Assembly (NCBI RefSeq): GCF_018607995.1
Contig: NZ_JABBAL010000015.1
Coordinates: 259,078 to 323,077 of the forward strand
DNA from: Planktotalea sp.
GTDB taxonomy: Bacteria; Pseudomonadota; Alphaproteobacteria; Rhodobacterales; Rhodobacteraceae
Direction: 5' to 3'
DNA length: 64,000 nucleotides
Both the position numbers and the translations under genes were made by a program. The notes under the pieces were generated by a model. It made no database searches. It saw nothing but the letters and a program-made list of their open reading frames with translations, and had not been told where the DNA came from. Positions 4,354 through 58,844 of this stretch are shown here, one piece after another; the stretch's first letter is position 1, and each line of letters opens with the position of its first letter.

Positions 4354-4818
4354 TCTACCGCTTATTTAAGCGAGAAGAGGGCGTGCAAAGCGAAACATGC
4401 GGAGAAAAACGCACGCATTGCGGTCTTGAGCGCAGATGCGAATGCCTCTGTCAGCGCAGCACATGAAGCAGGCGTCGCGTCTGAAGGTGCACTAGATTAT
4501 GATGGTGATGGTATCCTTGAGGGCGAAAATGAAGGCTCGAAACCCGCAACGCTTGACGGTGCGCGCGGTGGCGTGGCGGATGATTTCAAGCAGATCAAAG
4601 GTATCGGGCCGAAGATGGAAAAGATGTGTAACGCGCTTGGCTTTTATCACTTCGATCAGATCGCCGCTTGGACGCCGGATGAAGAGGCATGGGTTAACGC
4701 TAATCTCGAAGGCTTCAAAGGTTGCGTGAGCCGAGACGCATGGATCGAGCAAGCCAAGCTGCTTGCTGCGGGTGGTGAAACGGAGTTCTCTAAGCGTGTA
4801 GAGGGTGGCGACGTTTAA
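4354..4818 (+). pseudogene. remnant resembling the C-terminal extension of NADH dehydrogenase subunit NuoE
   Basis: An open frame from a stop at 4351 to TAA at 4816-4818 has no ATG and no ribosome binding site; the only near-N-terminal start codon is a TTG at 4426. The translation carries DYDGDGILEG, an acidic linker, then a helix-hairpin-helix-like block (FKQIKGIGPKMEKMCNALG, then FYHFDQIAAW) and ETEFSKRVEGGDV at the end. This is the pattern I know from the C-terminal extension of Rhodobacterales NuoE, which normally ends GDVY or GDVYE; here the Tyr position is a stop. The NuoE thioredoxin-like 2Fe-2S domain is absent. I read it as a 5'-truncated duplicate. A functional small HHH protein started at TTG cannot be excluded. 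Confidence 0.55.
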
Positions 4819-21380: not shown

Positions 21381-21517
21381 TCGCTTGTTTGCGGATTTGG
21401 AAACAGAAACGCTGTATTTGATCTATTTTCCTGACTTTGGCCTTAATCTGTCCAAGTTTGAGTACATTTGAGGGCCATTTTTCTCAGCAACAGGCAATTC
21501 ACGCAGAGGAATATCCC

Positions 21518-22716
21518 ATGAGCAGCATCGACGCGTCGCAGATCCACAGCAACAAAGCGCTTTTGGCGGTACCAGATAAAGCGGCGATGCCCGCGTCCAA
21601 GATGATCGTTGAGGTCGCACGCAAGTTTGGTGTCAGCCCAATCAAGCAATGCGCGAAATGTTCAAATTGGATCGTAAGGCGGGCATTGCGTTTGTTGAGT
21701 ATTACGCAGCACAGCATTACCGCACGTATTTGACTGCGGAAGAAAAGCTTCAGTTTGACGGTGAAAAAGGCAGCTACCAGCTGAACCTGCGCCTTTCGCC
21801 TGCGAAGCTTGGCGATAAGCGCTCATTCATTCGCGACAAGGTGCTCTACACGACGATGCTGAAAGGCATGAACCTGCCCACAACAGAAACCCAAGCGGTT
21901 GCCCATTCCGAGCGCGGCTTCGGTGGGATCAACACCCTGCGCGCACCTTCGGATGTTTCGTGGTTTCTGAAATCTGAAGCGATTTATCCGGTCTTTGCAA
22001 AAACCTTGGAAGGGTCGAAATCTGTAGGCTCAGCCTTACTGACGGGCATCGATGCTGCCAAAGGTTTGATCGAGATGGGCAATGGAAAATCGTTCGACAT
22101 CGACGCCTTCGCACATTAGGTGATCGCAGATTATCCAGAAGGATTTACGTTCCAGAGTGCTGTGCAACAGCACAAAGCCGTCTCGGCTTTGGCAGGGCAA
22201 GCCGTGGGAACCATGCGCGTTGTCACAGTGATTGAAGAAGGCGCGCCGCGTGTTCTATATGCGTTTTGGAAAATCCCATCCCCGAAAGCGATGTCAGATA
22301 ACTCCTGGCAATCCGGTTCTATGCTGGGGGCGGTTGATGCGGAGACTGGCAAAGTCAGTCATGCTGGCGCTGGCCTTGACCGTCAAATTCTTGAGCAACA
22401 TCCGATCTCTGGCAAGAGCTTTGCCGGTTTCCAAGTGCCGCATTGGGACAAGGTGAAAGAAGTCGCGAATCAAGGTCACAGCCTTTTCCCAGAGTTTGGT
22501 GTTTTTGGTTGGGATATCGCGGTTGGCGAAGATGGTCCTGTGATTATCGAATGCAATGCTAACCCGTTCCATGCGCTCTATCAATTGCCTCATGATCGCG
22601 GCATCAATAATGCTGATTTCGCTCCCGTGTTTGATCGTGTTGAGGCGCGCGCGCAGGCGATCTTGAAAGAGCGCACCGAGCAGATGAAGCAGCTTCGCAA
22701 AGAACAACAGGTTTAA
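21518..22716 (+). pseudogene. sugar-transfer-associated ATP-grasp family gene, frameshift plus nonsense
   Basis: ATG 21518 (AGAGGA upstream) opens a protein MSSIDASQIHSNKALLAVPD that runs out of frame near 21640-21650. Homology continues in another frame from MREMFKLDRKAGIAFVEYYA to TAG 22117-22119, then in that same frame from VIADYPEGFTFQSAVQQHKA to 22716. The whole reads as one ATP-grasp protein of the alpha-L-glutamate-ligase-like or sugar-transfer-associated type. ATP-grasp features include RVVTVIEEGAPRVLYAFWK and the metal-binding end GPVIIECNANPFHALYQLP. One base appears lost at the frameshift; the TAG probably replaces a Glu or Gln codon. Confidence 0.8.
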
Positions 22717-24140: not shown

Positions 24141-26726
24141 ATGGGTCCTGAAACATCCCAGTATTCAAAGGTGATCGCGCGTTTGCGTGGCCCGCTTTGG
24201 ATGACTTGGGCGGGGATGACTGCGGAGCGCGCCGCGCGCGCGTTGTGGCCGCTTTGGAGCATTATCATTGCGGTGCTTGCCGTATTGATGTTGGGCTGGC
24301 ACGAGAGTTTTCTAATTGAGGCGGTTTGGGGCATAGCTGTTCTTTCCGCAATTTCTGGACTTTATTTTTTGATCCGTGGCTTCATGCTCTTTCGCCTTCC
24401 AAACCGCATGGAAGCGATGGCACGGCTCGATAGCAGTTTAGCTGGTCGCCCGATCCAAGCACTGATGGACACGCAAGCGATCGGGCCAAGCGATGAGGCC
24501 TCTGCGGTGGTCTGGCGGGTACATCAATCGAGAATGGCGGCGCGGACAGCCGATGCGAAAGCCGTTAAGCCAAAGGTCCGCCTTGCCGCGCGCGACCCTT
24601 TCGCGCTGCGTTATGTTGCGGCTTTGCTGTTTGGGGTTGCTGTGTTGTTCGGCTCGCTCTGGCGTGTGGGCACAGTCACTGAGATTGCGCAGAACAACGG
24701 GGCTGTGATGAGCGGTCCGGTGTGGGAGGGGTGGATTGAACCGCCTGCCTACACAGGCAAACCCAGCCTCTATTTGAACGATCAAGATGGGCAAATAGAT
24801 GTGCCCGAGGGCAGCCGTATTAGTCTACGCTTATATGGTGAAATAGGCGCGTTAACCGTCGCTGAAACCGTTTCGCAAAGGATTGAAGGCACGGGTAGCG
24901 CAGCTGATCCGGGACAAAATTTCATAGCACTTACAAGTGGAACACTGGAAATTGCCGGGCCGAATGGGCGACTTTGGGATATTGCGGTCACGCCTGACAC
25001 GCAGCCGCGCGTTGAAGTTGTGGGCGCGGCGGAGAGGGGGGCGGATGGTGTCATGAGCTTGCCGTTTGTTGCCTCTGACGATTATGAGGTTGTCGGCGGA
25101 TCAGCAGAAATAGCGCTGGATCTGAATGCGGTTTCACGCCGCTATGGGCTGTCGGTTGATCCAGAGGTGCGCGCCAACATCGCGCTTGACTTGCCGCTAC
25201 CTATTTCCGGCGATCGTAGTGACTTTGCTGAAACTTTGATCGGGAATTTCTCTGAACATCCCTTTGCGAACTTGCCTGTGAAACTGTCAATGACGGTGCA
25301 AGATGCCAAGGGGCAAAGCTCTGACGTGAACACCACGCATTTGATTTTGCCGGGCCGTCGCTTTTTCGATCCGATGGCACGGGCTTTGATCGAACAGCGT
25401 CAGTGGCTTTTGTGGTCGAAAGATAACGCGGATCGCACAACACAGATGATACGCGCGATCTCGCATCGACCCGATGATGTGTTCCGCTCTAAGACCACAT
25501 ACTTACGGATGCGCATGATTTTGCGACGCTTGGAGACGCAAATCGCGTTTGATCAGTTTACAAAAGAGGCGCGCGATGAAGCGGTGGTCGCGCTTTGGGA
25601 CCTCGCGACTTTGATCGAAGATGGCGATGTTGAGGACGCATTGGAGCGGATGCACCGCGCGCAAGAGCGCCTATTAGAAGCGATGAAAAACGGAGCGAGC
25701 GACGAAGAAATTACAGAGTTGATGGATGAGTTGCGGCGCGCAAATGAGAACTACATCAACCAGCTACAACGCGAAACTGCGCGCAATAGTGAGACCCAAG
25801 AGCGCCAGCAAGGCATGCGAGATGATGCGATGCAAATGACGCAGGATGATCTGCAAGATATGATGGATCGCATTCAGGAACTGATGGAAGAAGGCCGCAT
25901 GGCCGAGGCAGAGCAAGCCCTGCAAGAGCTGCAAGAGATGATGGAGAACATGCAGGTCGCTGAGGGCCAACAAGGCGAAGGCCAGCAATCTGAGGGTCAA
26001 CAAGCCATGGAAGGTCTTGCGGATGTGTTGCGTGGTCAGCAAGGCTTGTCGGACCAGGCATTCCGCGATCTTCAAGAGCAATACAATCCGGGCGCGCAAG
26101 CGGGCGAAAGTGATGGCAACGAAGGGCGCAACGGCGGTCAGGGCCGTGGTCAGTTGCACGAAGGACAATCTGGCGAAGGTCAGGGGCAGGGCGAGGGTCA
26201 ATCTGGTGAGGCCAGCGATGGACAGCAAGGCGAAGGCCAAGGTTTGGCTGAGCGTCAAGAGAACCTACGCCGCGAAGTCGAGCGTCAGCGTGGTGCTTTG
26301 CCCGGCGCTGGATCCGAGGCAGGTGACGCCGCACGCGAGGCACTGCGCCGTGCAGAAGACGCGATGCGCGGGGCGGGGGAGGCTTTGCAGAGTGATGATT
26401 TACCCGAAGCGATTGATCGACAAGCCGAAGCGATGGATGCCTTGCGTGAAGGCATGCAAAATCTAGGTGAAGCAATGGCTAAAGCGGAAGGGCGCGAGGG
26501 TCAGCAAGGCTCAGCAGACGGGCGCGAAGGCGGTGAGCAACGTGATCCTTTAGGTCGCAATCCCGGCGCGACAGGGCAAGCGGGCACAGATCAAGGCTTG
26601 TTGCAGGGCGAGGATGTGTATCGTCGTGCGCGTGAACTGCTGGACGAAATTCGCAAGCGCAGCGGCGAGAGCGTGCGACCGGAAGTCGAACGCGATTACC
26701 TTCGACGATTACTGGATCGATTCTAA
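24141..26726 (+). CDS. TIGR02302 family (DUF4175) membrane protein
   Basis: 861 aa conserved alphaproteobacterial protein of unknown function. Two hydrophobic helices near the N-terminus (about 35-75) and one near 155-175 anchor a large soluble domain. The second half is helical with a long glutamine/glutamate/methionine-rich coiled stretch, followed by a low-complexity Gly-Gln-Glu tract (about residues 610-700) and a conserved C-terminal end DYLRRLLDRF. ATG at 24141 is supported by GGGGAG six bases upstream; an ATG at 24123 is less well placed. It follows lysA by 36 bases, the usual neighbour. The antisense ORFs over the repetitive tract are shadows. Confidence 0.85.
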   Translation: MGPETSQYSKVIARLRGPLWMTWAGMTAERAARALWPLWSIIIAVLAVLMLGWHESFLIEAVWGIAVLSAISGLYFLIRGFMLFRLPNRMEAMARLDSSLAGRPIQALMDTQAIGPSDEASAVVWRVHQSRMAARTADAKAVKPKVRLAARDPFALRYVAALLFGVAVLFGSLWRVGTVTEIAQNNGAVMSGPVWEGWIEPPAYTGKPSLYLNDQDGQIDVPEGSRISLRLYGEIGALTVAETVSQRIEGTGSAADPGQNFIALTSGTLEIAGPNGRLWDIAVTPDTQPRVEVVGAAERGADGVMSLPFVASDDYEVVGGSAEIALDLNAVSRRYGLSVDPEVRANIALDLPLPISGDRSDFAETLIGNFSEHPFANLPVKLSMTVQDAKGQSSDVNTTHLILPGRRFFDPMARALIEQRQWLLWSKDNADRTTQMIRAISHRPDDVFRSKTTYLRMRMILRRLETQIAFDQFTKEARDEAVVALWDLATLIEDGDVEDALERMHRAQERLLEAMKNGASDEEITELMDELRRANENYINQLQRETARNSETQERQQGMRDDAMQMTQDDLQDMMDRIQELMEEGRMAEAEQALQELQEMMENMQVAEGQQGEGQQSEGQQAMEGLADVLRGQQGLSDQAFRDLQEQYNPGAQAGESDGNEGRNGGQGRGQLHEGQSGEGQGQGEGQSGEASDGQQGEGQGLAERQENLRREVERQRGALPGAGSEAGDAAREALRRAEDAMRGAGEALQSDDLPEAIDRQAEAMDALREGMQNLGEAMAKAEGREGQQGSADGREGGEQRDPLGRNPGATGQAGTDQGLLQGEDVYRRARELLDEIRKRSGESVRPEVERDYLRRLLDRF

Positions 26727-27550
26727 GGTTTGGTTGTTTCCGCAGCCTTTTGATCTAACCACGCAAGGCCGCCGTCAACAGACTCGCCTAACCAAGTGCG
26801 CGCATCCTCAACCAACGTACTATACTGCGCCATATAAGGTTCAGAAGCGGGGACAAATTCTGTAATTTGGGGGCCAAAAATGTAGGCACCAACGGCGGCA
26901 GCGCCAAGCATTATCATCGTAACGAAGCCGCGTCTGAACCTGCGACCTTTGCGCTCAATACGCGTTGTCGTTCCGGGCAAACCTGCATCATCTGCTTCGG
27001 CCAGGCGGCGACGCTCACCAGATGAGCGCAAAGTCGAGTTGATTTCTTCGATATTAGGCAGCAAATCGCGGCGCGATCCGGCAGCTGCGGTCACTGCGGC
27101 GACTGCAACTTCGTCTGGCTCAGGCTCACCACGCATACGCGCCATCCGCTTGCGCGCTTCGCGTGCACGGCACTCGCGTTCGTTTTTTGGTTTTGCTTCC
27201 AGTCCAAGATCAGGTTGTGTTTCCAAAGGCGCGCCCTGCTCTGCGGCGCGAGCTGCGGCTTCGAACTCCGCCTCTTGGCGCAAAATGTCGGAAATCTCAT
27301 GGTCCAGTTCTTGCCACATCATCGTCGGTGCGTCTTGCACAGGTTCGGGAGCAGGTTCAGGTTCTGGCGGTAGTGCGACAGGTTCTACGCTGGCGCGATC
27401 CACCTCATCCGCAAGGCCTGCATCATGATCGGGACGCGCTTGAAACCACGTGTTTGAGCACGCTGAACATTGGACATCGCGTCCTTCAGTCGGGATGACT
27501 TCCGTTGGAACCTCATACTGAGCCCCGCAATTTGGACAAATCAAACGCAT
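26723..27550 (-). CDS. zinc-ribbon (MJ0042-type) membrane protein
   Basis: 275 aa. N-terminal zinc ribbon with C5-x2-C8 and C28-x2-C31 (MRLICPNCGAQYEVP, QCSACSNTWF), a long acidic, proline-rich middle, an Arg-rich segment, one membrane helix near residues 210-230 (GFVTMIMLGAAAVGAYIFGP) and a short C-terminal domain. Function unknown; such proteins usually sit divergent from ftsE in Rhodobacterales, which fits the remnant next door. It overlaps the end of the TIGR02302 gene by four bases (convergent). Confidence 0.8.
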   Translation of the reverse strand: MRLICPNCGAQYEVPTEVIPTEGRDVQCSACSNTWFQARPDHDAGLADEVDRASVEPVALPPEPEPAPEPVQDAPTMMWQELDHEISDILRQEAEFEAAARAAEQGAPLETQPDLGLEAKPKNERECRAREARKRMARMRGEPEPDEVAVAAVTAAAGSRRDLLPNIEEINSTLRSSGERRRLAEADDAGLPGTTTRIERKGRRFRRGFVTMIMLGAAAVGAYIFGPQITEFVPASEPYMAQYSTLVEDARTWLGESVDGGLAWLDQKAAETTKP

Positions 27551-27741
27551 ATCACACCTTGCCTTCTGGCATATTCAGCAGACCAAAAACGGCCTTTCCA
27601 GCGAATACCATATGCCGCGCAGGCAATATGGTAAATCCCATACGCGCGATCGCGCGACGAGTGATTGAAACCGCGCGCGCGCTGAGGCAGAACAAGGCAC
27701 AGGTTTGTCGTCAAACGGCAGCAGGCAGGAAAGGCCAGAGC

Positions 27742-28221
27742 TTGATCGAACTCCATACAGTTGCCCATACCTACAGCGGTGAAGTTCCCGGCGCGGTCTA
27801 CCACGCACGGTGGCGCGCACTTTTGGTGTCTGCGGCCAGCTCACTTCGGATGCTGGGCTGGATTTCAATCATTCTGATCGCACTTGCGAAAGGCGCGATG
27901 ATTTCACTGGCCGCGCTCGCAGCCAACGCGCAAGTGATCGCTGTTATGCGGCTCGTGGGTGCGCGCGACTCCTACATTGCACAAGCGTTCATGCGGCGCT
28001 TTACCCTGCGTGCCTTGACGGGCGCGGCGATAGGCACTGTCCTCGGTATGGTTGCTTTGTTGTTTCTTCCCAGCGCTTCCGAAGAGGGTGGGTTCTTGAC
28101 AGGACTTGGCTTACAAGGCGGGCATTGGTTTCTGCTTTTTTTGATCCCTATTCTTGCGGCTGTCGCCGCGACCCCTCCCACGCGTCTTGCCGCGCGAAAT
28201 ACCCTATGGAGCCTCACATGA
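27742..28221 (+). pseudogene. ftsE-ftsX deletion fusion: start of ftsE joined to the last half of ftsX
   Basis: The TTG at 27742 (AGGAAAGG upstream) starts LIELHTVAHTYSG, the normal first residues of FtsE, but the Walker A motif never follows. The frame passes directly into EVPGAVYHARWRALL and then the FtsX C-terminal half, with membrane segments including WISIILIALAKGAMISLA and a VGARDSYIAQAFMRRFTLRA block. About 650 bases of ftsE and 400 of ftsX are missing. FtsX has also lost about three residues in the usual LAANAALAANA repeat. FtsEX is an ABC-type complex activating septal peptidoglycan hydrolases. The 159-codon frame is open, so a chimera could be made, but it cannot be an FtsEX complex. 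It overlaps plsC by four bases. Confidence 0.8.
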
Positions 28222-28955
28222 ACGAAAAGAAAAACCCTGTGCAATGGCTGCGTTCGCTTTTGTTTGTGGGGCAAATCTATTTAATGATGCTGATAATTGG
28301 TTTGCTGTTTGCACCTTGGGCGTTGTTTTCAAAGCGCGGTGCGCGCACCTGTTGCAAGACCTACAGCCGTTGGGTTTTTTGGACCGCAAGCTGGATGGTG
28401 GGCTTGAAGATCGAAGTGCGTGGCACACCACCGACAGAGCCGGGATTGGTTGCAGCCAAGCACCAGAGCTTTCTAGATATCATGATGATTTTTACCGCTA
28501 TTCCTGCGGGCAAGTTCATCATGAAAAAGCAAATCCTGTGGACGCCAGTGATTGGGCAATATGCGAAGCTGTTGAACTGCATCGCCGTGGATCGCGGCAA
28601 GCGTGGGGCGGCGATTGAAAAGATGGTCGCGGATGTAAAGGCAGGCTTGGTCGAAGCGGGTCAGCTGATTATTTACAGCCAAGGTACACGCGTCGCACCG
28701 GGTGCGCAGAAGCCTTACAAGGTTGGCACGGGCGTTCTTTACGAACAGATGGGACAAACATGTTATCCCGTTGCAACCAATGTTGGAGTGTTTTGGCCGC
28801 GCACAGGGATTTACCGAAAACCGGGTGTGGCCGTTGTTGAATTTCTTGAGCCAATAGATGCGGGCCTTACGCGCGAAGAGTTCATGGCTTTGCTCGAAGA
28901 GCGGGTCGAAACCCGCTCTAACGCGCTGATGCGTGAAGCGGGTTTCGAAGTTTAA
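28218..28955 (+). CDS. plsC: 1-acyl-sn-glycerol-3-phosphate acyltransferase
   Basis: 245 aa, complete. Acylates lysophosphatidate to phosphatidate at the inner membrane. N-terminal helix (about 10-32), catalytic H-x4-D in KHQSFLD, and YSQGTRVAPGAQKPYKVGTG as the acceptor-binding block (QGTR in place of the more common EGTR, which as I recall is usual in this order). ATG at 28218 overlaps the ftsX remnant stop, as plsC does with intact ftsX in relatives. Convergent with lpd, with four bases between stops. Confidence 0.93.
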   Translation: MNEKKNPVQWLRSLLFVGQIYLMMLIIGLLFAPWALFSKRGARTCCKTYSRWVFWTASWMVGLKIEVRGTPPTEPGLVAAKHQSFLDIMMIFTAIPAGKFIMKKQILWTPVIGQYAKLLNCIAVDRGKRGAAIEKMVADVKAGLVEAGQLIIYSQGTRVAPGAQKPYKVGTGVLYEQMGQTCYPVATNVGVFWPRTGIYRKPGVAVVEFLEPIDAGLTREEFMALLEERVETRSNALMREAGFEV

Positions 28956-30829: not shown

Positions 30830-30881
30830 TACTGTGAATTCCTTGCGTGCGGTTTGGACCAAGCATTGATCTGCGCTGGTG

Positions 30882-31022
30882 TTAGAAGCGTGGCGGCGCG
30901 ATGCTTGAATAAATCACGACCTGATCGAAGCTAATCACATGATTATATGCGAGCCATTCAACAATGAAGAGCCCCCCATTGCGCATACAGGCCATCACAG
31001 CTGTCTTCGCTGCTTTAGTCAT
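30882..31022 (-). pseudogene. glycosyltransferase family 2 N-terminal remnant
   Basis: 46 codons: MTKAAKTAVMACMRNGGLF, then IVEWLAYNHVISFDQVVIYSS, then unrelated IAPPRF and a TAA. The block ACMRNE..FIVEWLAYH...GFD.VVVYSND is the start of a Rhodobacterales glycosyltransferase-2-like family. Here the acidic residue after RN is Gly and everything after the first strand is gone. The ATG at 31022 overlaps the stop of the upstream gene (ATGA), so it was once translationally coupled. Confidence 0.7.
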
Positions 31023-31219
31023 GTAACAGCAGCCTTGCATTTCGGGCAAATAACCACGTTTCGATCTAACGGATCACGGATGAAAGGCGCGATATGATGC
31101 AGACGCCGCGAGGGCGTCTGACCAAGTCTGCTGTGTTGCCCAACTTCGACGACCCAATTCACCTTGGCGCTAAAGCCACAATGCGGGTAGGTCAGCGTTT
31201 TGGGTTCCAAATAGGCCAT
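31019..31219 (-). CDS. small zinc-ribbon-like protein with one degenerate knuckle
   Basis: 66 aa between sucB and the glycosyltransferase remnant. It starts MAYLEPKTLTYPHCGFSAKV and ends VICPKCKAAVT. In relatives as I remember them both knuckles are CPxC; here the first is YPHC, so a metal ligand is missing, while the second (CPKC) is intact. Function unknown. It starts nine bases after the sucB stop. With its coupled downstream partner dead, the gene may also be decaying. Confidence 0.6.
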   Translation of the reverse strand: MAYLEPKTLTYPHCGFSAKVNWVVEVGQHSRLGQTPSRRLHHIAPFIRDPLDRNVVICPKCKAAVT

Positions 31220-43782: not shown

Positions 43783-44814
43783 ATGCTCAAGACCAACCCA
43801 GGCCGCTTTTTCGAAGATTATTCTATCGGCGATGTAATCTATCATGCCGTGCCACGCACTGTATCTGGGGGTGAGCGCGCGCTCTATCACGCGCTTTATC
43901 CTGCACGCCACGCGCTTTATTCCTCGGATGAATTTGCGCGCCAAAGTGGTTTGCCAGCTTCACCCCTGGATGATTTGGCGGCATTTCACGTGGTCTTTGG
44001 CAAATCGGTGCCCGATATTTCGCTCAACGCGGTTGCGAACCTTGGATATGCGGAGGGGCGCTGGCTAAAGCCTGTGTATGCAGGCGACACGTTGCGTTCT
44101 GTGTCCGAAGTGATCGGTTTAAAGCAAAATTCAAGCGGTAAAACCGGTGTCGTCTATGTTCGGACTTCTGGCATCAATCAGAATGATGAAACTGTGATGC
44201 AATTTGTGCGCTGGGTGATGGTGCGCAAACGCGACGACACTGCGCCTGCGCCGGAAACGGTTGTTCCAGACCTCAAAGACACGCTGGATATTTCCGATCT
44301 GGTGATCCCTGATGGTCTGGATTTTACCGACTATGACACCAAGATGTCGGGCGAACCGCATCGCTGGGGTGACTATAAGATTGGCGAAAAGATTGATCAT
44401 GTTGATGGCGTGACTATCGAAGAAGCCGAGCATATGATGGCGACGCGACTTTGGCAGAACACAGCGAAAGTGCACTTTGACGCCACCCACCGCGATGATG
44501 GGCAACGCCTGATTTACGGTGGTCACGTGATTTCCATGGCGCGTACATTGTCGTTCAACGGCTTGGCGAACGCACAAATGATTGTTGGCTTAAATGGCGG
44601 TGCCCATGCAAACCCGTGCTTTAGCGGTGATACTGTGCGCGCGTGGTCCGAAGTGCTGGACAAAGCTGACACATCCGCTCCTGGCGTTGGTGCACTGCGT
44701 TTGCGTTTGGTGGCCTACAAGGGTGACGCCGTGTTCCAGCTGAAAGGCGAGAACGGTAAACACATGTCGCAAGTTTTGCTGGATCTCGATTATTGGGTGG
44801 TAATGCCGAAATGA
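43783..44814 (+). CDS. mch: mesaconyl-C1-CoA hydratase (beta-methylmalyl-CoA dehydratase)
   Basis: 343 aa double hot-dog (MaoC-like) enzyme of the ethylmalonyl-CoA pathway that hydrates mesaconyl-C1-CoA to beta-methylmalyl-CoA. N-terminal hot dog about residues 5-150 with GRFFEDYSIGDVIYHAVPRT; C-terminal hot dog about 190-335 with QRLIYGGHVISMARTLSFNG. Length is that of Rhodobacter Mch. Its partners mcl1, mcl2, ecm and ccr are all in this window. The stop overlaps the ATG of the dead DUF4344 gene. Confidence 0.93.
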   Translation: MLKTNPGRFFEDYSIGDVIYHAVPRTVSGGERALYHALYPARHALYSSDEFARQSGLPASPLDDLAAFHVVFGKSVPDISLNAVANLGYAEGRWLKPVYAGDTLRSVSEVIGLKQNSSGKTGVVYVRTSGINQNDETVMQFVRWVMVRKRDDTAPAPETVVPDLKDTLDISDLVIPDGLDFTDYDTKMSGEPHRWGDYKIGEKIDHVDGVTIEEAEHMMATRLWQNTAKVHFDATHRDDGQRLIYGGHVISMARTLSFNGLANAQMIVGLNGGAHANPCFSGDTVRAWSEVLDKADTSAPGVGALRLRLVAYKGDAVFQLKGENGKHMSQVLLDLDYWVVMPK

Positions 44815-45524
44815 TCCGTGCGTGTTTAACGGCCTTGACCCTTCTGCCAGCCCCCGCATTTGCGGATTTTACAGAGAACGACCTCTTAGCGATTTGCTAC
44901 GATGAATTGGGCCATGCGGTCATTGATCCGATGCAAGTGCCGATCTTTGGGCAGGAAGAAGACGCAGCGGACTCACTCTCGATCCTGTTGATCGACGCGC
45001 TCTATGACAGTGATGATGCGGAAGTCATTGCCTATGACAGCGCTAGCCTTTTTTGAGCTGAAGCGCAGGATGAGCCGGCTTTTTGGGACACACACGGGCC
45101 TGACGAAAAACGTTATTTCAATACCGTGTACTTGTTTTATGGGGCTGATCCTGATGTGCTCGAAGATTTCGTTAGCGATCTTGAGTTGCCACAAGCGCGT
45201 GCGGATGGTTGCGAAGACTAATTTGCTTTGGCGGCGGATAGCTGGAACGGTGTCCTTGATGGGGTGAGCGAAAGCAACGCTTTGAAAGGCCAGCTGGTCT
45301 TGCAAGCGGGTGCTGAAAACTCAGTAATCTCGCAAGGGATTAAAGCTCTGAACGTTAAGTTCAGTTGGCCGCGCGATATTCCAGTTAAGCTGGAGGACTG
45401 CGGCGAAGCCAACGCATTTTACGATCTGGATGAACAGAGCATAACAATGTGTCGTGAGCTGACGGGCTGGCCGAGCGGAATTGTTAAACAAATTGGTGTG
45501 AACTATTTTTGTGATCACAGCTAA
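44811..45524 (+). pseudogene. DUF4344 putative metallopeptidase, two in-frame stops and damaged zinc motif
   Basis: ATG 44811 opens a signal peptide (CLTALTLLPAPAFADF) and ICYDELGHAVIDPM. The frame is interrupted by TGA 45054-45056 and TAA 45219-45221 but continues unshifted to 45524. The downstream text (EPAFWDTHGPDEKRYFNTVY, then LFYGADPDVLEDFVSDL and ALAADSWNGVL) is DUF4344-like. In that family the zinc motif is HELGH; here it is DELGH, so a metal ligand is lost as well. Present between mch and sdhC as in relatives. The first TGTGATCACA site of the sdh operon overlaps its last codons. Confidence 0.83.
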
Positions 45525-53559: not shown

Positions 53560-54142
53560 TCAAGAATGCGAGTGCAGCGTAAAGCGCATTTCAGTTGCAC
53601 TTGAAAACCCGAAGAGATGTTTGAGCGGACCAAGCGTCTGTACTTTGCCAGCGATAAAGCCTTCGCGTTCATACAGTGCGCGTGCACGTGGATTGTTATC
53701 AATTACATCGAGACGCACGTCGCTACAGTTTCGCTGGTCAGCTTTGGTCTTGATCGCCTGCAGCAGTGCGCGGCCAAGCCCCATACCACGCGCATTCTGT
53801 GTGACGAAGATGCCATCCATCAACTGGGTTTCGCTTTTAAATTGCGTTCCAGCAATGACAGTAATGCAGTGCTCCATATGGCACCCATTGTACCGAACAC
53901 CGCGTGCTGGTCATCAAAATCACCGCGCCTTTACTCGTTTTAAAACCAACGACGCCCCAAAAGGGTCCCATTGGCATCACGCGCGCAAAGCGCGGCTCAG
54001 CGACGTGTGCTAGAAACTTCAGCGCTTTTGCCTCGGGGCTGAGGCCAATGGATAGTTTTGCACCGAAGTCTTCCCAAAACAGTGCTGCGACGATGGGACG
54101 CTCGGCGTCTGTGAACCCTTGAGTGATGCGAAAGCTCGACAT
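53560..54142 (-). pseudogene. GNAT acetyltransferase, frameshifted
   Basis: The 5' half starts MSSFRITQGFTDAERPIVAA at 54142 and runs through AEPRFARVMPMGPFWGVVGF, then degrades after GFKTSKGA. The 3' half in another frame has LMDGIFVTQNARGMGLGRAL and VRLDVIDNNPRARALYEREG, the GNAT acetyl-CoA and C-terminal motifs. The frames meet between 53837 and 53877, and part of the middle seems deleted compared with relatives. Two separate short genes are unlikely since neither is a full GNAT fold. Confidence 0.75.
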
Positions 54143-57214: not shown

Positions 57215-58086
57215 ATGAACAACACTTGGATACTTGACGTTCTGACGGACTTGAAAACTTTTACATCTATGAACGGCCTTAAAGCCTTGGAGAACGAGCT
57301 TGATTGCACACATCGCGTGGCGTCCGCAGAACTTGATGCATTGAACAAAAGGCCAATCCTGGGCTCAAAAACTGAACACCGCGGACGTTGACCGCAGTCT
57401 GGCCGAGTTGGAACGCGCTTCCGGGCTTCAAGACCCGCAGACGGCTATCGTCAAGCTGTGTGAGGCCTGCAAGATCGACCATATGGTCTATCACCAAGTG
57501 TATAGCCAAGGGGACCAATACGGGTGCGGCACATATTCACCTGCTTGGGTTGAACGATATTTGGAGAAAGAATACCTCCGCATCGATCTGGTAATTTTGG
57601 GGTGCTATCAAAGGTTTCATCCTATTGATTGGAAACGTCTCGATTGGTCATCAAAAGCGGCGTGCGGTTTTCGCGCGGAAGCGATGGAATATTGGGTTGG
57701 CCATCAAGGCTTCTCTATCCCGATGACGGGGCCGAACGGGCAATACGCGTTTTTCATGGCGTCACATCATTGCTCTGATGAGGATTGGCAAACCTTCAAA
57801 AATGAGCACTCCACCAGTTGATCCTGCTCGCGCATTTTTCAACCAGAAAGCTTTGGAGTTTGAACCTGATCGCGTTCCTAAAGCCTCAACAACGCTGTCG
57901 CCACGTCAAACGGACGCGATGACATTTCTCGCTATGGGCTTCAACCGCGCGAAAGCAGCCGACAAGATGGAGATCTCGGAGCACACGTTGCGAGTCTACA
58001 TTGAATCTGCCCACTTCAAATTGGGAGCAATCAATACGACCCACTCGGTCGCGCGCGCGATGAGCCGTGGGCTGATCGTTGTGTAA
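57215..58086 (+). pseudogene. LuxR-family autoinducer-binding regulator, at least three frameshifts
   Basis: ATG 57215 starts MNNTWILDVLTDLKTFTSMN and shifts frame at the A4 tract 57347-57350 (one base too many). The second frame reads SLAELERASGLQDPQTAIVK, the autoinducer-binding domain (YGCGTYSPAWVERYLEKEYL) and DEDWQTFKNEH, ending at TGA 57819. A few residues (LILLAHF) then fit a third frame. The C-terminal HTH domain (TLSPRQTDAMTFLAMGFNRA and ISEHTLRVYIESAHFKLG) is in the remaining frame up to 58086. Each piece follows the order of a single Roseobacter-type LuxR protein. It lies just upstream of a broken luxI. Confidence 0.85.
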
Positions 58087-58170
58087 GCTTTAAGCTACCG
58101 CGCGGCCTGTTCACATACCCTAAAATCATTAGTCGCAAGCGGCCACATCAATTTTGTGTGGAGTGCGGCA

Positions 58171-58844
58171 ATGATCAGATACTTGTATGAAGATGAACTT
58201 AAGACAGCGCCCTTGTTGAAAGAAACCATGTTTCTCGACTGTGTGGATCAATTCAAAACACGGCTTGGTTGGGATGTGATGCTTGAAGACAATGGCTATG
58301 AGCGAGATGAATACGACAGCCACAACCCTCTCTATGTGATCTATCAAAAAGCGGATGGTACGCAGGGTGGCTCGATGCGGTTACTGCCCAGCACGGGGCG
58401 TACAATGGTGAATGAACACTTCTCTGAGATCCTTGGTAGCGGTGATGTGCGCAGTCCATTCATCTGGGAATTCACCCGATTTTGTCTTGCACGCAACACA
58501 GAGCCGCGCACAGCCGCAGCCTTAATGCTGGCTGGGGGCGAGGTCATGGAGAACTTTGGGGTGAAGCATTTTTTGGTGTGTTTGATGTGCGCATCTATTA
58601 CATGATAGGGGCAAGCCTCGAGGTGCTGGGCAGCACAGGTGACGGTCGCGAGAAAATTAGCGTCGGACTGTGGTTTTTCACCGATGAAGCGCGTTTGCTT
58701 GTCGCTCAAAAAGCAGGAATTTCTGCCGCACTTTCAAAGCTCTGGTGCGAGTGGGCCTTCGGATCAGACGCCCCAAAAGTATCAGAATTCGCTCGAGTTA
58801 AACAAACCAGCGCTGGCACTTTGCATGGGGTGCAGATAGTTTGA
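58171..58844 (+). pseudogene. LuxI-family acyl-homoserine-lactone synthase, frameshifted
   Basis: ATG 58171 starts MIRYLYEDELKTAPLLKETM, and the LuxI core follows: GWDVMLEDNGYERDEYDSHN, GSMRLLPSTGRTMVNEHFSE and VRSPFIWEFTRFCLAR, with the conserved Trp, Asp, Glu and Arg residues present. The frame breaks at a T6 run (58569-58574). GVFDVRIYYMIGASLEVLG and ISVGLWFFTDEA continue in another frame to 58844. About three residues also appear missing in the DARMVRIYRMIG region. The C-terminal third is needed for acyl-chain binding, so activity is unlikely. The pair luxR-luxI is tandem, as in other roseobacters. Confidence 0.85.

Follow-up and report, generated by a model that had tools for sequence, protein, structure and literature searches.

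Between a zinc-ribbon gene and a plsC-type acyltransferase gene, the 64,000-nucleotide stretch of Planktotalea DNA that we analyzed (the window) carries a short frame that opens as FtsE and closes as FtsX. The locus raises the questions of how this frame arose, whether anything useful is still made from it, and what has become of the proteins with which FtsE and FtsX would act. We think it very probable that the locus is a recently destroyed ftsEX operon, and that the deletion is part of a wider loss, that of an entire septal peptidoglycan-splitting module, in a genome that is shedding genes generally.

The deletion junction and the search for a second copy

The frame occupies window 27742-28221 on the forward strand. 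It is initiated at TTG with the 13 codons LIELHTVAHTYSG, passes directly into EVPGAVY... of FtsX, and ends with a TGA that shares bases with the plsC ATG at 28218 (ATGA). The features of the locus are:

26723..27550, minus strand: zinc-ribbon gene (PF13717), the conserved upstream neighbor
27727..27734, plus strand: Shine-Dalgarno-like AGGAAAGG, inherited from ftsE and with the same spacing to the ftsE start in HTCC2083
27742..27780, plus strand: first 13 ftsE codons with TTG start, LIELHTVAHTYSG
27774..27781, plus strand: deletion junction, with a single CAGCGGTG (two copies 1,082 bp apart in HTCC2083)
27781..28221, plus strand: 3' part of ftsX from about residue 150 of 300, with remnants of TM2-TM4 and the stop codon (PF02687 match; tblastn and alignment)
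27799..27800, plus strand: site of a private 6-bp in-frame deletion, relative to five congeners
27913..27914, plus strand: site of a private 9-bp in-frame deletion in the former TM2, relative to five congeners
28218..28955, plus strand: plsC-type acyltransferase gene (PF01553, 53.7 bits), with an ATGA overlap with the remnant stop

A first-pass annotation had proposed that an in-frame deletion fused the first 13 codons of ftsE to the C-terminal half of ftsX, and this is confirmed both by the repeat at the junction and by comparison with HTCC2083 (G004), the nearest relative of the window genome and the reference used here. HTCC2083 has two copies of the 8-bp repeat CAGCGGTG, 1,082 bp apart; in the window these 1,082 bp are missing, and a single copy is present at the junction located by BLAST. 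The HTCC2083 ftsE and ftsX genes overlap by 4 nt in different frames, and they are joined in the window because 1,082 leaves a remainder of 2 on division by 3. Matches of at least 8 bases were found by chance at a fraction of 5e-5 of 20,000 random position pairs in HTCC2083. Among the congeners the repeat pair is specific to HTCC2083: G003 and G005 have no copies in the stretch examined, and the copies in G001 and G002 lie elsewhere. The DNA flanking the junction is 94.2 and 94.6% identical to HTCC2083. Recombination or slippage between the two repeats would have removed the 1,082 bp. The ribosome binding site and the 13 FtsE codons would thereby have been placed in front of the 3' half of ftsX, in a single open frame reaching into the plsC start. 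The TTG start, the ribosome binding site-like AGGAAAGG and the open frame up to the plsC overlap are all present in the window, as annotated.

Contig C34, of which the window is positions 259078-323077, has 12 other clean deletions relative to HTCC2083. Taken together, the 13 have direct repeats of a mean length of 4.5 bp at their ends as compared with 0.69 bp at random positions, a contrast inflated by the use of the best junction placement for each deletion and a single placement for each random pair. Despite this inflation, a general process of deletion seems to have produced the one in ftsEX along with the others; it is a genuine deletion remnant of ordinary mechanism. The short direct repeats at these 13 deletion ends are a possible signature of the process by which the genome is shrinking.

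Full-length ftsE (225 codons) and ftsX (300 codons) are present at this locus in all five congeners examined (HTCC2083, G001, G002, G003 and G005). They have the same flanks as in the window, and the comparison with sister genomes suggested by the annotation thus finds an intact pair between the zinc-ribbon gene and plsC in every case. At the position of the ftsE start, G005 has V and the other four congeners have L. HTCC2083 FtsE matches PF00005 with 110.5 bits, and its best NCBIfam family is FtsE at 229.5 bits, below the cut-off of 264.85. The upstream zinc-ribbon gene (26723-27550) is open in the window, with a replacement:silent ratio of 26:6 on the window branch compared to 11:8 on the HTCC2083 branch and a dN/dS of 0.67, indicating that it is under relaxed or positive selection.

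The annotation had also offered a second copy of the operon as an explanation of the loss, and this is not supported by searches of the assembly (94.3% complete, 40 contigs, 3.13 Mb), since the HTCC2083 FtsX query finds the remnant alone and the FtsE query finds matches at paralog level. The best-scoring FtsE match in the window genome is 36% identical and the others listed are 24 to 38% identical, as is typical of ABC paralogs in both genomes; in HTCC2083 the same query retrieves its own gene at E 4e-147. PF02687 has seven matches in the window genome, including the remnant. The other six were rejected as FtsX replacements, having frames of 420 to 847 aa and none being found by the FtsX query.

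What the remnant frame retains

Functional FtsEX is lost from this genome. In comparison with the congeners, the window is without the first half of FtsX and 212 of the 225 codons of FtsE, and it has two further small deletions. The missing parts comprise the FtsE ATPase domain, FtsX TM1 (30-48 by hydropathy), and FtsX residues 1 to ~149, which amount to nearly the whole periplasmic domain. As the annotation had noted, no ATPase motifs lie between the fused parts: a Pfam scan of the frame detects no ABC domain, and just the 13 codons remain of FtsE. The FtsX part retains three hydrophobic stretches and is 88% identical in protein sequence to HTCC2083 FtsX, and lacks both TM1 and the EnvC-binding periplasmic domain. 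It exceeds the cut-off for the FtsX permease domain PF02687 (33.1 bits against 25.5), but with private deletions and radical changes. Its score against the NCBIfam FtsX equivalog family is 20.1 bits against a cut-off of 255, and the intact HTCC2083 FtsX is likewise low at 31.5 bits; a profile of 19 intact FtsX relatives matches solved FtsX chains with a best E of 1.5e-15.

Beyond what the annotation had described, the FtsX part has 6- and 9-bp in-frame deletions and many replacements relative to the five congeners. Two residues are lost before TM2 and three within it, and TM2 has gained a lysine, all at positions that are identical in the five congeners. TM4 has two prolines close to its end, at positions occupied by L/I and A/S in the congeners. 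When changes are polarized with four outgroups, the ftsX remnant shows 12 replacement and 12 silent changes on the window branch, compared to 3 and 8 on that of HTCC2083, with 9 sites ambiguous. The remnant dN/dS to HTCC2083 is 0.27, a value equaled or passed by 3.3% of 276 intact genes. The remnant product, without the ATPase and EnvC-binding domains, is most likely non-functional, and the leftover frame looks like a decaying remnant rather than a working chimera. The annotation's suggestion that a small chimeric membrane protein could be produced stands as far as the open frame with its start and ribosome binding site is concerned; the case for a useful product is weak, with TM1 and nearly all of the periplasmic domain gone and TM2 and TM4 damaged.

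Two readings would nonetheless give the frame a present role. One is that it encodes a mini-FtsX or chimeric membrane protein that keeps some FtsE-independent function of FtsX. The open frame with start and ribosome binding site and the above-threshold PF02687 match are consistent with this, as is the report that Caulobacter ftsX, unlike ftsE, could not be deleted (PMC5607218). Against it stand the absent TM1 and almost absent periplasmic domain, the damage to TM2 and TM4 at conserved positions, a replacement rate like that of damaged genes, and the breakage of the EnvC-type and amidase genes described below, and we regard it as very improbable. The other reading is that the frame is kept as a translated leader, such that ribosomes terminating at the TGA reinitiate on the plsC ATG; it is the frame that would matter here and not the amino acids. 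The ATGA overlap is found in the window and in five of five congeners, and the TGA overlaps an ATG or lies at most 3 nt from one in all 15 family ftsX loci examined, the ATG being confirmed as the plsC start in the window and HTCC2083. Amino-acid constraint on the remnant is no better than on damaged genes (dN/dS 0.27 against a median of 0.29). The frames were joined by the large deletion and left undisturbed by the two small ones, whereas of 151 intergenic indels 10 are multiples of three; that both small deletions keep frame hints that the frame was constrained when they arose. These observations would agree with selection for translation into plsC but not for the peptide itself, with chance and an earlier origin of the small deletions as alternatives. 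However, plsC has its own GGAG before the ATG. The small deletions may also be older than the large one and date from a time when the cell still used ftsX; among indels in intact genes, 16 of 42 have a length divisible by three. Moreover, 10 of 44 indels in damaged genes keep frame, making two of two unremarkable (a chance of about 0.05). We hold a translated leader to be possible but rather unlikely.

Lesions in the EnvC-type and amidase genes against the background of decay

The annotation had argued that loss of FtsEX implies a changed division mechanism, and this is supported more widely than could be seen from the window because the EnvC-type gene and the amidase gene are broken too. The EnvC-type gene (C34:31226-32353) lies between genes that we take by eye to be gpmI and ctpA. 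It is open in five of five congeners; in the window genome codon 101 has changed from CAA to TAA, and the reading frame of this EnvC/LdpF-type gene is thereby interrupted. Assignment of the gene as EnvC is likely but weak, because the 376-residue HTCC2083 protein matches the M23 family (PF01551) at 24.7 bits, below the cut-off of 28.7, matches no NCBIfam family, and resembles solved EnvC-like chains at E values of 0.004 to 0.7. Within this range, the partner chains of FtsX-containing solved entries give E values of 0.004 (8i6o) and 0.01 (8tzk), and the EnvC structures weaker ones of 0.58 (8c0j) and 0.68 (4bh5). The replacement:silent ratio of the gene is 31:21 on its own branch compared to 5:21 on the HTCC2083 branch, and 9.4% of intact genes have a dN/dS as high as its value of 0.20.

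The amidase gene amiC is the only Amidase_3 (PF01520) match in each of the window and HTCC2083 genomes. The HTCC2083 gene has 405 codons and its product matches PF01520 at 160.9 bits and AMIN at 20.6 bits against a cut-off of 20.5. In the window genome (C24:333595-334808) it has a TAG at about codon 33 and a 1-bp loss that shifts the frame at the HGG motif, leaving no intact AMIN-Amidase_3 protein; its dN/dS of 0.35 is reached by 2.5% of intact genes. Three separate loci thus carry lesions of different kinds (the ftsEX deletion, the EnvC-type nonsense codon, and the amiC nonsense codon and frameshift), and replacement rates are raised in all three. A further M23 peptidase gene, at C29:294352-295207 (L073), is open in HTCC2083 and broken by frame changes in the window genome.

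The division and wall genes examined near ftsZ are in a different state. We find no lesion in ftsZ, in the genes that by eye and from gene order we presume to be ftsA, ftsQ, ddl, murB, murC, murG and ftsW, or in a PBP1A-like gene beside amiC. Between murB and murC, two short frames (137 and 88 aa) have no counterpart in the window genome. Two M23 genes remain open, one on C22, which by eye we take to be NlpD/DipM-like, and a DUF5930-M23 gene on C24.

These lesions have to be seen against a general decay of genes in the window genome. In a 400-kb part of HTCC2083 that is collinear with C34, 349 genes are predicted, of which 277 are intact in the window genome, 13 have nonsense codons, 9 frameshifts and 4 truncations, 8 are mostly deleted and 38 are absent; in the reverse comparison 288 of 306 window-genome genes are intact in HTCC2083. 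The damage rate is 34 of 311 detectable genes (~11%, the 34 including ftsX and the EnvC-type gene), or 72 of 349 if the absent genes, which may be HTCC2083 gains, are counted. These rates come from a codon-scored gene set; a count of longest frames was rejected as inflated by spurious frames, since of the 231 window-genome frames with 200 aa or more 31 likewise looked non-intact in HTCC2083. The genes with small lesions (n=26) have a median dN/dS of 0.29 compared to 0.08 for intact genes (p 1.7e-13), which argues that the lesions are not merely sequencing noise and that the damage is mostly real decay.

Several such genes lie in the window itself. Both genes of a luxR/luxI-type quorum-sensing pair (57363-58083 and 58156-58793; PF03472 and PF00765), open in HTCC2083, are frameshifted or interrupted. 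Relative to HTCC2083 there are also a damaged GNAT acetyltransferase gene (53563-54142), a DUF4344 metallopeptidase gene with two stops (44793-45503), a mostly deleted glycosyltransferase gene (about 30832-31049), a sugar-transfer ATP-grasp gene with a stop (21437-22713), and a truncated gene lacking a Pfam match (4372-4815).

Probable loss of the septal splitting module here and its possible loss across the family

The module that would have been lost consists of FtsE-FtsX, an EnvC-type activator and the amidase AmiC, and it seems that the whole pathway of daughter-cell separation is disappearing. A relaxed need for the module may have allowed its joint loss; division would now be carried out by the remaining divisome and other hydrolases, with imperfect separation leading to chains. 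Loss of FtsEX in E. coli causes chains and poor growth in low-osmolarity medium (PMC7668044). A salty habitat might soften this cost. In Caulobacter crescentus loss of ftsE likewise leads to chains (PMC5607218, PMC10336132). Co-purification in that organism connects LdpF, AmiC and FtsEX, and AmiC is called essential (PMC10336132); the authors place AmiC in a pathway separate from that of FtsE and LdpF (PMC5607218, PMC10336132). The Caulobacter proteins FtsEX, LdpF (EnvC-like) and AmiC have recognizable counterparts in HTCC2083, namely FtsE, FtsX, a LytM-domain activator and an AMIN-Amidase_3 amidase, and whereas all four are present in Caulobacter all four genes are broken in the window genome.

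Loss of FtsEX from reduced genomes in which division continues is already known. Brucella ovis (PMC2821768) and Baumannia B-GSS (PMC4758232) have no FtsEX, and neither do most of the obligate intracellular bacteria covered by one review (PMC10591338). The window genome differs from these in being larger than 3 Mb and in having a lesion-free ftsZ region and readable remnants of ftsEX, the EnvC-type gene and amiC. Of interest is the apparent loss of a whole module caught part-way, where the FtsEX losses on record are usually seen after the fact; a search of titles and abstract openings found no account of the joint loss, and no paper that connects FtsEX and amidase with Rhodobacteraceae. The three remnants can still be read next to an intact sister genome, which could make it possible to study in what order, and at what cost, a septal hydrolase pathway is dismantled.

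This apparent dismantling has parallels elsewhere in the family. We surveyed FtsX and the amidase in 296 genomes, one per genus and at least 90% complete, and found PF01520 in 272 and FtsX (profile A2) in 272. The window genome scores as present for both through its remnants alone and was excluded from the contingency count. Among the 295 others, both proteins are present in 267, the amidase alone is absent from 4 (G076, G124, G135, G136), FtsX alone is absent from 4 (G081, G130, G144, G157), and both are absent from 20, where about 2 would be expected (Fisher p 2e-23, uncorrected for kinship), with the proviso that some homologs may be hidden by fast evolution because several co-absent lineages have long branches. 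The distribution of the co-absent genomes was examined on an rpoB tree of 27 rows deliberately enriched for absences (15 co-absent, 3 lacking each protein singly, and 6 with both). Four of the 20 co-absent genomes (G216, G242, G266, G298), known by elimination, are outside this tree, and 3 of 30 genomes (G044, G124, G081) were left out as rpoB was not obtained from them; the G072 and G111 sequences are partial, and the joining of G203 with G072 may be a long-branch artifact. The co-absent label requires 8 changes on the tree, at least 4 of them forced by well-supported branches, and it clusters no more than shuffled labels do (135 of 500 as low), indicating that the co-absent genomes are scattered.

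Two rival accounts have to be weighed against this reading. In one, the deletion, nonsense codons and frameshift would be artifacts of a poor or mixed assembly of an intact genome. In its favor, this is a draft genome in 40 contigs, but assembly collapse at ftsEX is unlikely because the shared repeat is just 8 bp, far too short for it, and the remnant carries private mutations. The lesions are of three kinds, lesioned genes are faster at replacement sites, and about 342 kb are collinear with HTCC2083; we give this account hardly any credence. The other account is background decay alone, in which ftsEX, the EnvC-type gene and amiC fell independently and with no functional link. Gene decay is general in the window genome, with widespread damage (34 of 311 detectable genes) that includes the luxI/luxR pair. 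Given the damage to ftsEX, damage to two further named partners would arise by chance with a probability of 0.012 to 0.043 at rates of 0.109 to 0.206, and the joint loss of the three loci is thus only modestly beyond the background rate and suggestive only. The excess of family genomes lacking both FtsX and the amidase, and their scatter over the rpoB tree, speak against independent decay, which we judge unlikely. Dismantling of the septal splitting module is the reading that we prefer for the window genome. We extend it to the family more tentatively, at a little under an even chance: the FtsX-amidase pair, probably with its EnvC-type activator, may be repeatedly discarded as a unit while the FtsZ divisome stays, with separation then carried out by other hydrolases and the window genome in mid-switch. 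The repeated joint absence bears on the question, in alphaproteobacteria, of whether FtsEX acts mainly via the amidase. If loss as a unit is correct, FtsEX and AmiC would act together here in a single pathway, contrary to the proposal from Caulobacter genetics that their pathways are separate.

The rpoB loci themselves (L161, L169-L175) have long branches in several of the genera without FtsX and the amidase and not in others, which might reflect relaxed selection.
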